Below, piece after piece: positions 15,531-36,782 of a stretch of DNA of 39,231 nt. The DNA is from Okeania sp. SIO3I5 (GTDB taxonomy: Bacteria; Cyanobacteriota; Cyanobacteriia; Cyanobacteriales; Microcoleaceae), in contig NZ_JAAHHT010000017.1 of NCBI RefSeq assembly GCF_010672085.1, positions 160,986 through 200,216 on the forward strand, in the 5' to 3' direction. Numbering within the stretch: position 1 is the first letter of the stretch; each line of letters begins with the position of its first letter. The notes beneath the pieces were generated by a model. That model did not search any database, was not told the DNA's origin, and worked only from the letters and a program-made list of their open reading frames with translations. A program made the position numbers and the translations under genes.

Positions 15531-15889
15531 TATCAAATTCGGTTGAATACTTATTATATAGTTGGGGAAGTAGGGGAGTAGGGGAGATTGAATATTGAAG
15601 TAATTAGGGCTTGCTGATTAATTACAAAAGTATTGATATATAAAGGTTTGACGATTCTCAGGGTCGAAAAAAGTGCCTGATTTTCAGTTAAAAATGATTA
15701 AAAAGCTAGTATTCTGGGCTGATTATGACAGAAAAATCACTCTTACAATTCTTATTCCTACCTCTTCTAAATTACCATTTCTTCTGACTCCTGACTCCTG
15801 ACTCCTGACTCCTACCCCTACTATGCATACTTTTTCAGCAAACCCTAATTATAGAATTATCAACTTATGTTATATAACCGGATTCTATA
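15531..15889. mobile_element. Family-1 miniature element, 359 bp, TGA target duplication
   Basis: Begins TATCAAATTCGG and ends CCGGATTCTATA (9 of 12 positions matching as inverted repeats). TGA occurs immediately outside both ends (15528-15530 and 15890-15892). The interior includes GACTCCT heptamers and no ORF. Confidence 0.65.
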
Positions 15890-16046
15890 TGACAAAAACA
15901 ACTTCTAACTTTTGAATTTTGAATTTTGAATTTTGACTTCATTAACCCAGGGGTGCATCTGCTAAAAAACATCCTCAAACTTAAAATTTTAAATCAATAA
16001 GTTTCAGGTTGTCATAACTCGTACACAGATGCAATAAAAATTAGTA

Positions 16047-16895
16047 ATGAAGCACTCCAACCAAGCAATTAATTCTAGAGAATATAAACTTATTCTCAAC
16101 GTCAATCAATTTTATGAGCGTAACCATGCGGTAGAAAAATTTGGTAATTTAGTTGAGTTATTAACACAACAGTTTTCGGGAAAAGTTATTAGTCGAGAAA
16201 CAGCAGAAAAATATCGACAAACTTATTATTTAGATACGCCGAATCTTGATTTACGTCATTATGGTTTTATCTTGAGAATTAGGCAAGAAAAAAGATCTAA
16301 CCAACCAGAATATCAAGTAACTCTCAAACATCGTGAATCAGACCGTTATTTGTCAGCTTCACAGGATTTATCGGCAACTAAACCGGGTAAAACCAAGTTT
16401 GAGGAAGATATAATTCCACCATTTCAAAGTAAGTTTTCTCAGTCAATATCTGTGGCTAAAAATCAGCAACCTAACTTTGAAAATATCAAACAAGTGGCTA
16501 AATTATTTCCTGGATTAAAATCTCTCGATATTCCTGAAAAAACTCCGATTGAGAAAGTCAATAATTTTCAAGTTTATGAGGTAGTAAGAAAACTTGGAAA
16601 TTTACAGTTTGGAGATCGACATATTGTTAAAACAGATTTAATTTTCTGGTATTTAAACCAGACAGATAATTTGCCAGTAATTGCAGAATTTTCCCTGAAA
16701 TATCGTATCCCGAAAAGATTGTTAGAATCTCCCAAAAAATTAGAACAATTTCCTCTACCAATGATTCAAGGAACAAATCGTTTATTTAAAGCATTGCAGC
16801 AACAATGGGAATGGATAGATTTTCATCCTATGACTAAAACTGCTTATGTTTATGGTGAAGGAAATAAATCTCAAAATACATTTTTGGCAGCATAA
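16047..16895 (+). CDS. CYTH-like (triphosphate tunnel) domain protein
   Basis: 282 residues. The strand pattern and charged residues resemble the CYTH/VTC-type tunnel fold: SREYKLILNV near the start; TYYLDTPNLDLRHYGFILRIRQ (about 70-91), the typical YYDTxxxxLxxxxxxLRiR motif; YQVTLKHR; FEEDI; a second half with VYEVVRKLGNLQF, HIVKTDLIFWYL and VIAEFSLKYRI. These tunnels bind triphosphates or polyphosphate with metal, so hydrolysis or binding of such a compound is plausible. The first ExExK motif is not canonical (REYKL), so activity is uncertain. The region about 125-165 is a family-unlike linker. Single gene, surrounded by long non-coding spacers. Start at 16047 fits the opening of the first strand. 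Confidence 0.75.
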   Translation: MKHSNQAINSREYKLILNVNQFYERNHAVEKFGNLVELLTQQFSGKVISRETAEKYRQTYYLDTPNLDLRHYGFILRIRQEKRSNQPEYQVTLKHRESDRYLSASQDLSATKPGKTKFEEDIIPPFQSKFSQSISVAKNQQPNFENIKQVAKLFPGLKSLDIPEKTPIEKVNNFQVYEVVRKLGNLQFGDRHIVKTDLIFWYLNQTDNLPVIAEFSLKYRIPKRLLESPKKLEQFPLPMIQGTNRLFKALQQQWEWIDFHPMTKTAYVYGEGNKSQNTFLAA

Positions 16896-17218
16896 AAATT
16901 TCTCTTATAGTAGGGAACAGGGAACAGTGAAGAGTTGGAAAAATATTTCCAACTCTAAGATTAATCATCAGTAATTTTCCTAACTAATTCTTTCTTAGCT
17001 ATAGCTGCTTCTTGAGTAGGAGACAAGTACACATAAGAATAATTCAGGACTTACGCAAAATAGCAAATTATACACCATTTGTAGGGGCGATTCGTGAATC
17101 GCCTCTACTAGATATGGTGGTTCTGCCTAAGTCCTATAATTAATATGCTACTAGCTAATAATTGTCAAAATACTTGAGGGAGAATATTTTTTTCCCTATT
17201 TAAAGTAGGGAATTTTTA
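16896..17218. other. Spacer after the CYTH-like gene
   Basis: No gene. It holds the family-2 element at 17045-17136. At 17202-17220 a weak hairpin TCCCTA...TAGGGA is followed by ATTTTTATT. That could end transcription on the plus strand, but it lies 300 bp after the nearest gene. Confidence 0.5.
17045..17136. mobile_element. Family-2 miniature element with nested 28-bp palindrome
   Basis: Starts CAGGACTTACGCA (17045-17057) and ends TGCCTAAGTCCTA (17124-17136), flanked by TAATT on both sides (17040-17044, 17137-17141). In the centre, 17081-17108 is a GTAGGGGCGATTC...GAATCGCCTCTAC palindrome of the same length and ends as the 7696 family. Confidence 0.85.
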
Positions 17219-35119: not shown

Positions 35120-35231
35120 AACGTTACGGTTTTAAGTTATATATTTTAATTATACTAAATAATCTTTAAATTTACTAAAAAAGCCAATAAATTAAAAACT
35201 GATAATTGATAACTGATATTGAAAGTTAGCA

Positions 35232-35606
35232 ATGGCATTCCCAGAATTAAGATGTACTTTTAACGGACGTTCCCTAGTTCCAGATATTTCAGTTTTTGCA
35301 TGGCAATGTATTCGCAGAAAACCCAATGGTAGAATCGAAAACAAATTTGAAATAGCACCAGATTAGGTAATAGAAATTCTCTCCCCAGACCAAAGTTCTA
35401 ATCAATTAATTAATAAAATTCTTTTCTGTCTCAATAATGGTACTCAGTTAGGTTGGTTAGTAGATTCTGAAGATGAATTTATAGTGACTTTTCAACCTAA
35501 CCAACAACCATAAATTAGATATAATTTTGATAATTTACCAGTTCTCAATTTATTAACAGATTGGCAATTATCTATTGCAGATTTATTTAGTTGGTTATAC
35601 AAATAA
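35232..35606 (+). pseudogene. Uma2-family (DUF820) endonuclease remnant with two nonsense codons
   Basis: Readable as MAFPELRCTFNGRSLVPDISVFAW...FEIAPD, stop (TAG 35364), VIEILSPDQSSNQLINKILFCLNNGTQLGWLVDS...QPNQQP, stop (TAA 35511), then LPVLNLLTDWQLSIADLFSWLYK and a final stop at 35604. In intact Uma2 proteins (about 190 residues) the first stop is usually Trp (APDW) and the second Glu. The N-terminal ~60 residues are missing. The PD-(D/E)XK core (VPDISVF, EILSPD) is still recognisable. Uma2 genes are present in large numbers in cyanobacteria and often decay. Confidence 0.88.
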
Positions 35607-35937
35607 GGTTTGCTGAATAAAGTCGAGTAGGGGGCGTTTTGCTAGCCTATAACTCGGTTAACGCGGAGCGAAATGAAAAGCATTTCTTTTTATTCCCAAT
35701 CTGACGAGGAAGTTACCATGATGGTTTGCAAACAGTTGGGTATTAACTCCTCTTTAGATTGGAAAAAAGTTTGAAATAAAAAGAGCAGATGGTGCTTTGA
35801 CGCCAAAAGTTTATGATCCTGCTAGTCAGAAGGTAGCGGATATCGACAATGAAAAGTTGACTAACCTCACCTAACATTTGCTTGAAAAATTAGTTAGCAT
35901 AAGTCATACCTAAAATACAGTTAGCTTCTAATAAAAC
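35607..35937 (+). other. Spacer with a few degraded codons between two pseudogenes
   Basis: Plus-strand fragments such as MKSISFYSQSDEEVTMMVCKQLG (from about 35675) and KRADGALTPKVYDPASQKVAD (about 35781-35845) are readable in different frames, separated by stops and a shift. They suggest a small decayed gene that I cannot identify. At 35899-35937 homology to the end of the membrane-protein gene begins. Confidence 0.35.
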
Positions 35938-36782
35938 TCAATCCTGAATATCTAGAACTTGACAACTTTCTTGAACATTTAACAAACTCGGAACTATACC
36001 ATTTTCCATCTGCGCTCTAACTAGAGTAGCGGCAGTATTATTTAATTGTTGAAGGCGATGATTTTTCCTGACATACTCTAAAGTTAATGCCTGAGAATCT
36101 AACAACCAAAAATCAATCTCATATTTTTGGATAAATTTTTTCACTTCTTCTAAATTAGGACTATTGAGAAAGTAATAGAGAAATCCTAAGAATAAAGGAT
36201 AGAAAAATGCTCTGGGGGTGGCGGAGATTAATATCATGTCCGGTTGAATAGTTATAAATAACGAGGGAGGAGGGTGGGGAGTGTGGGGAGTGTGGGAAGT
36301 GTGGGAAGTGTGGGAAGATGGAACTTTTTTTATCACTAATTATCCGGACATGATATAAGTCATCTTTTAGCCACAGATTTTGATTCAAAAATAATGTGCT
36401 GAGAAATCCGGCGAGTGGCACAGGTAATATTTGGATTGCGACTCCAAAACAATAGGCAGTTGTAATTAATCCTAATATTATTGGCAGGAATTTCTTGAGT
36501 AATAAAGGTCGGATGCCGATGAGGGAAAATAGTTGATAAAAGTAGGTATATCCTTTGGGGCGACTGATTGAAAATAGTCGGCAATAATATCGTTGGGAAA
36601 AAGTTCAGGATTGAGAAATCTTGCCATCCAAAAAACATGGGAACGAGCGTCATCTTGGACGACATATTGACTGTTGAAGGCGGGAATTATTCCTAAAATT
36701 TTACAAATTATGCCTAAGATTAGGCTGAGGCAAAACCAGATTTGGTTGGAGGTAATGTGGTTATATATTTAGGTAAATTCAT
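35938..36782 (-). pseudogene. Deleted, frameshifted and MITE-interrupted paralogue of the GT-C-like membrane protein
   Basis: Minus-strand copy of the 37177-39231 gene. From 36782 it reads MNLPKYITTL..., probably the true N-terminus that is cut off in the intact copy, then shifts frame twice (one T missing near 36731; one C missing near 36559). A 124-bp family-1 element lies at 36232-36355. At about 36162 it jumps from sequence equal to 38748 directly to sequence equal to 37451, a loss of about 1.3 kb. It then ends with FIQKYEIDFWLLDSQALTLEYVRKNHRLQQLNNTA... and an early stop at 35938. Homology continues as untranslated sequence to about 35899. No functional protein is possible. Confidence 0.92.
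36232..36355. mobile_element. Family-1 miniature element, 124 bp, TAA target duplication, with empty-site proof
   Basis: Perfect 12-bp inverted ends TATCATGTCCGG (36232-36243) and CCGGACATGATA (36344-36355), flanked by TAA (36229-36231 and 36356-36358). The paralogue at about 38809-38816 reads GAGATTAAGTC without interruption, showing the pre-insertion site. The interior is a GTGTGGGAAG decamer repeat. Confidence 0.95.

Follow-up and report, generated by a model that had tools for sequence, protein, structure and literature searches.

Which transposase moves the short elements scattered through a 39,231-nucleotide stretch of the Okeania sp. SIO3I5 genome (the window, in whose positions coordinates are given below)? 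Five copies with related inverted ends lie there between three-base repeats of the form TNA, and an earlier note, made from the sequence alone, had traced them to the IS1031 group of the IS5 family. There are solid grounds to regard the family as real and large, and to regard its parent as an IS630-related, TNA-duplicating transposon, mostly of a known kind. The window copies themselves are very probably miniature inverted-repeat transposable elements (MITEs) moved in trans by members of this IS630-related subgroup that have the same ends.

The boundaries given in the earlier note are correct to the base, and its triplets flank each copy; none of the five is assigned a strand. Element 1 (15531–15889, 359 bp) lies between TGA triplets and has the ends TATCAAATTCGG and TATAGAATCCGG, which differ from the pattern TATCAWRTCCGG by one and two mismatches. 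Element 2 (19358–19498, 141 bp), also flanked by TGA, is inserted where a tandem repeat array ends, and the interior of element 3 (23559–23706, 148 bp, TAA on both sides) resembles that of element 2, with TGACTCC heptamers. Element 4 (25985–26830, 846 bp, TTA on both sides) has no match to IS630 proteins, nor does any other part of the window, while element 5 (36232–36355, 124 bp, TAA on both sides) has two exact ends and splits a partial gene copy. Four of the five copies thus measure 124–359 bp and one 846 bp. The view that they form a single non-autonomous family, defined by its ends, with two end subtypes in the window and TNA duplications, was borne out; the end pattern put forward, TATCAWRTCCGG, is present at all five copies, though exact in just five of the ten window ends. 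A scan of the window for pairs of ends (at most two mismatches per end and three in total, 50–1000 bp in length) recovered these five as the only TNA-flanked pairs, and 100 dinucleotide shuffles gave none. This control is favourable to the pattern because the pattern was derived from the window, and counts across genomes provide the independent test.

In the Okeania genome the exact pattern occurs 325 + 306 times (631 ends), against 0 + 1 for the reversed pattern. Counts of exact ends across 59 genomes, this one included, range from 0 to 1,465, with the maximum in an 11.1-Mb genome (G018); the 23 genomes from other families have 0 to 13, but one, G042, has 37. When one 26-base extended end was searched against a collection of species genomes, at least 108 stretches matched, and all 80 among the matches listed are cyanobacterial by name. 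The ends are also paired, as the family proposed in the earlier note would have them. Within 1 kb, 89 of 107 exact ends have an inward-facing partner (70 of 107 with the same TNA), compared with 27 of 107 for an outward-facing partner as control, where each exact end had 1 kb of sampled DNA on either side (18 near sequence edges were left out) and partners had at most two mismatches. Genome copies carry the TNA duplications as well: 74 of 76 facing pairs share the middle base, against 28.7 expected under independence. These are the pairs with T.A on both sides among 81 adjacent facing pairs (at most one mismatch per end), taken from sampled Okeania DNA irrespective of flank agreement; the sample includes 30 loci picked by similarity to the copy at 36232, and some mismatched pairs were lost from the set of 81 because a one-mismatch end intervenes. 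With exact ends only, the same sample gave 28 of 32 (12.9 expected), and the 80 named-genome loci gave 31 of 33 (14.7 expected), the middle base being mostly A or T in the own-genome and named-genome sets. Of those 80 loci, 39 had a short same-TNA pair, 35 had none, and six had a long pair only, every one of them on Scytonema tolypothrichoides scaffolds.

Empty sites complement these duplications. The flanks of 227 TNA-flanked elements were joined via one TNA and searched against all sampled DNA, and for 16 elements a match of at least 80% spanned the junction under a stricter filter. The best match per element was ungapped at the junction in 12 of the 16, eight of these outside low-complexity sequence; two more had a one-base insertion beside the junction and outside the TNA, and the last two were gapped and in low-complexity DNA. 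The cleanest empty site of all lies in the window itself, where a neighbouring paralogue (38748–38934, plus strand) matches the joined flanks of element 5 over 187 bp at 94.7%, ungapped and with one TAA. Element 1 has empty sites at L066 (83%) and L058 (82%), ungapped at the junction and with TTA where the element has TGA, and that of element 2 is an earlier repeat unit at 18950–19124 (89%, low complexity, junction ungapped). Element 4 has just one gapped match, at 72%, and element 3 had no empty site in all sampled DNA. Both a duplicated target and an empty site with one copy of it, marks of a MITE, are therefore found in this family, and as the empty sites hold one TNA, the element brings its own terminal TA along.

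The candidate partner came from the extended-end loci, 108 in number, which include seven identical 1152-bp copies with exact ends, six on the S. tolypothrichoides scaffolds and the seventh at L290. Identical triplets flank six of the seven. All share the same undetermined base, which may mean that a single consensus was used by the assembly to fill them. Two shorter derivatives with internal deletions also occur, one of 756 bp (TTA/TTA) and one of 870 bp (TTA/TAA). The 1152-bp element has two overlapping open reading frames (ORFs) of 179 and 223 residues, and a run of A in the overlap suggests a frameshift; in genome G013 the transposase gene is a single open frame of 363 residues. The second Scytonema ORF matches the NCBIfam model transpos_IS630 (NF033545; 3.8e-36, 125.1 bits, cut-off 100) and Pfam DDE_3 (PF13358; 1.9e-18), and the first matches the front part of NF033545 (1.8e-20, below the cut-off) and helix-turn-helix families. 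By sequence, then, the partner encodes an IS630-type transposase. Searched with the second ORF, 17 of 18 genomes had matches, and several of the 39 IS630-match loci examined are bounded by TATCA-like ends on both sides; ten full-length elements of this type could be delimited, at 1.15 to 1.29 kb. At the right ends of elements 2 and 3, the outermost 27 bases are identical to one end of the G013 element, and the right end of element 5 has 23 of 24 bases in common with the IS630 end of G004 and G018.

MITEs also share their ends with an autonomous element, and this holds in Scytonema and relatives; the Okeania genome, among the matches listed, has only broken copies. Its 11 protein matches to the second ORF are, among the matches listed, all short or broken; at L330 a matching end lies just past the end of a broken IS630 gene, and at L347 gene fragments lie between two matching ends. 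About 1.13 Mb of sampled Okeania DNA held 26 long same-TNA pairs among the matches listed. Seven ORFs translated from these pairs and one other ORF, considered as possible autonomous copies, resembled, by eye, host genes between neighbouring MITEs, and none of the 15 ORF clusters with at least three members (of 63, judged by eye) was a DDE transposase between such ends. The family may be stranded in this genome, or an intact source may lie in DNA that is unassembled or outside the matches listed. Elsewhere, G014, G016, G025 and G045 showed no long element in 30 of 133 match loci, and G042, from another family of the order, had 20 stretches with a related repeat whose ends are TATCAAGTCCGG and in which an exact partner is rare. 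Two window elements were searched against plasmid DNA; one had no match, and the short matches of the other were read as cyanobacterial heptamer repeats. Viral contigs contained no relative of the transposase, and solved structures gave no significant match.

The IS1031/IS5 parentage put forward in the earlier note was not borne out; the elements that have these ends at full length encode IS630-family transposases instead. The TNA duplication, typical of the IS1031 and ISL2 groups, is what speaks for an IS5-family, IS1031-like partner, and the duplication is indeed present. An IS630 subgroup also makes TNA, however, so the duplication does not single out IS5, and no IS5-type transposase was found between the ends. 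The Okeania genome has no match to PF13359 or PF13586, and none of its nine PF01609 matches is bounded by family ends on both sides, so the IS5-like gene with the same ends foreseen in the note was not found there with these profiles; several genomes, by contrast, have an IS630-type transposase between these ends. Among 60 PF13359/PF13586 loci from relatives, one (L171) lies between same-triplet ends. It was rejected as a partner, being an IS5-like element with different ends of its own, inserted inside a TATCA element, and a PF01609 gene near an end (L034) was, by eye, likewise another insertion sequence inside a TATCA element. We consider an IS5-family partner highly improbable.

A closer contender is an ordinary TA-duplicating IS630 element that begins at TCA, with TNA reflecting merely a palindromic target preference (TNATATNA). 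According to PMC2170065, a TA duplication is what characterised IS630 elements produce, and a Thermus survey gives 2 bp for its IS630 (PMC6352166, in part). The elements here do begin and end with TA, so that a TA would be found by anyone expecting a TA duplication, and the unequal triplets described below are permitted by such a model. Yet the middle base is shared by 74 of 76 pairs rather than the 28.7 expected, the 16 junction-spanning empty sites (the ungapped one in the window among them) are mostly ungapped with one TNA and never show the extra TATNA that TA duplication predicts, and ISAva6, a related element discussed below, has the same TNA in four of four copies. We therefore regard a TA-duplicating partner as very unlikely, and since TNA takes the place of the two-base TA duplication of characterised IS630 elements, the partner is classed in an IS630-related TNA subgroup and not as canonical IS630. 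Because the flanking T and A are invariant, the sequence alone fits a three-base stagger (TNA, element TATCA...TGATA) and a one-base stagger (N, element ATATCA...TGATAT) alike.

Several observations weigh against an IS630-related, TNA-duplicating parent acting in trans. No transposition was observed, and an intact partner was not seen in the sampled Okeania DNA. Outside the Scytonema set there are ten delimited full-length copies with TATCA-like ends, of which two are plasmid-borne; all ten have T.A on both sides, but only four have identical triplets and six have unequal ones. The unequal triplets could have arisen where repeats were chimerically joined in draft assemblies, or through recombination of one copy with another, although one such case, in C. 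aponinum, lies in a complete plasmid. As an observation in its own right, the left and right triplets are reverse complements of each other (e.g. TGA/TCA) in seven of ten unequal-triplet copies, whether full-length or internally deleted (L252, L268, L322, L324, L352, L361 and L365); this is automatic when the middle base is A or T, yet three cases have G/C.

That the copies are instead structured, non-mobile repeats that recombination has spread, or that are retained for a regulatory role, is hardly credible. Their ends can indeed pair into a stem, and as single-stranded DNA elements 5 and 3 fold better than most shuffles (one and none of 200 shuffles, respectively, folding as well, compared with 21 of 200 for element 2); some interiors, moreover, are simple repeats. 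Target duplications and empty sites argue otherwise, as do ends common to transposase-coding elements. Transposition in trans by the IS630-related subgroup agrees with what is seen directly, namely the ends, the TNA duplications, the one-TNA empty sites, the full-length IS630-type elements with the same ends and the internally deleted derivatives of one such element. Judging from sequence, mobilisation in trans, a cut-and-paste mode and a three-base stagger would complete the picture. The MITE copies would be short DNAs that lack a transposase of their own and keep the ends to which one binds; the IS630-related transposase would read the 12-bp end and a looser block extending to about 25 bp, and insertion at TNA would leave a TNA on each side. 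If only the ends are read, nearly any interior could be carried.

The interiors and surroundings of the window copies are varied. Element 1 encloses a second, different repeat (approximately 15604–15850) whose inverted ends are AGGGCTTGCTGA / TCAGCAAACCCT, so that without it the element would be only about 110 bp long; similar units occur near L034 2380–2640 and L094 9030–9275. Other interiors contain short tandem repeats: elements 2 and 3 have TGACTCC heptamers, and element 5 has a G-rich array of the GTGTGGGAA type, which also has many stand-alone matches in the Okeania genome. About four tandem copies of a 200–240-bp intergenic unit occupy approximately 18430–19350, with element 2 at the last copy's end. 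At 14863–15002, three right-end-like sequences (TATCAAATCCGC, TATCAAATCTGC and TATCAAATCCGA) follow one another in the same orientation at 60–70 bp spacing, without same-TNA partners, and appear to be decayed or tandem remnants of the family. A group II intron reverse transcriptase with maturase and HNH domains is encoded at 20301–21995.

The three-base duplication extends to relatives of the partner with other ends. For nine of the 12 plasmid-borne relatives inspected, the ends could be located. Seven of the nine lack TATCA-like ends; the flanking triplets are the same on both sides in five of these seven (Deinococcus grandis TCA, Thermus brockianus TGA, Methylocystis TGA, Microvirga TAA and Skermanella TAA) and unequal in T. 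parvatiensis (TCA/TGA) and T. thermophilus SNM7-6 (TGA/TCA). A script read the catalytic spacing as 31 (DD31E) in seven sequences, and manual counting gave the same value for ten others (D. grandis, L327, L352, L355, L356, L363, L365, ISAva6, Methylocystis and Microvirga); for D. grandis the script took an upstream D and gave 39, the manual count being 31. Two other IS630-type copies of the Okeania genome have a spacing of 34 (DD34E; L319 by script, L320 by count); the flanks of L318 and L320 are ordinary TA and those of L319 ambiguous. In the sequences that could be read, TNA thus appears to go with DD31E, a comparison that includes very few TA-type cases. We lean slightly towards a distinct IS630 branch in Cyanobacteria, Deinococcota and Alphaproteobacteria, in which DD31E is coupled to a three-base TNA stagger that replaces the TA rule of IS630-Tc1-mariner elements, with a cyanobacterial MITE expansion reaching 1,465 exact ends. 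Such a branch may be under-recognised because the terminal TA of the element is mistaken for the duplication. A tree of nine loosely aligned fragments was built, and nothing is drawn from it. Literature searches gave no match for DD31E together with IS630 (most subscription papers lie outside the searched set), matches only under unrelated titles for IS630 with TNA as whole words, and, for the end 12-mers cut to 11, listed matches unrelated by title.

Among known systems, the IS630-like ISAva6 of Trichormus variabilis ATCC 29413 plasmid A is close: its transposase is 46% identical to that of Scytonema over 185 residues, it reads as DD31E, it starts and ends with TA, and all four plasmid copies have TNA on both sides, but its ends, TACTGAATAGGG / TACTAAATTGGG, differ from TATCAWRTCCGG. 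In Deinococcus radiopugnans, all examined IS630 members are described, in passages of PMC10017437, as having three-nucleotide repeats (TGA/TAA/TCA) and the end TACGGACTCCGATTAA. ISDrpg7 and ISDrpg8 of that species resemble the present family in their repeats, and TACGGACTCCGATTAA is also the end found in D. grandis; it differs from TATCAWRTCCGG, and those passages mention neither MITEs nor empty sites, nor do they contrast the repeats with TA. ISY100 of Synechocystis is likewise a cyanobacterial IS630/Tc1-mariner element with a DDE transposase and inverted repeats, but one that, in the passages of PMC2170065, inserts at TA and duplicates it (34 of 39 in vitro products). According to parts of PMC7386202, Fot, of the pogo superfamily, is an IS630-Tc1-mariner branch that duplicates three bases (TAA in 341 of 385 elements), though eukaryotic, of the pogo lineage and with TAA rather than TNA; Sailor is given a TATA duplication in a passage of PMC8533490. 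The superfamily thus has known exceptions to TA, and the three-base IS630 variant is not new, having been published for Deinococcus in the passages cited. The present analysis adds a MITE family of cyanobacteria together with its likely partner, evidence from empty sites and a proposed link to DD31E. A cyanobacterial MITE of about 134 bp with an insertion sequence partner, Nezha, was reportedly described by Zhou and colleagues in 2008 and may overlap with the present family.

In Anabaena sp. 90, 147 MITEs are reported, in part of PMC3542288, that do not evidently resemble the inverted repeats of the insertion sequences in that genome, a real gap in cyanobacteria. Against this background, a MITE family that looked orphaned gains a likely transposase. 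TNA duplication alone is no pointer to IS5, and the proposed link between catalytic spacing and stagger length is testable.

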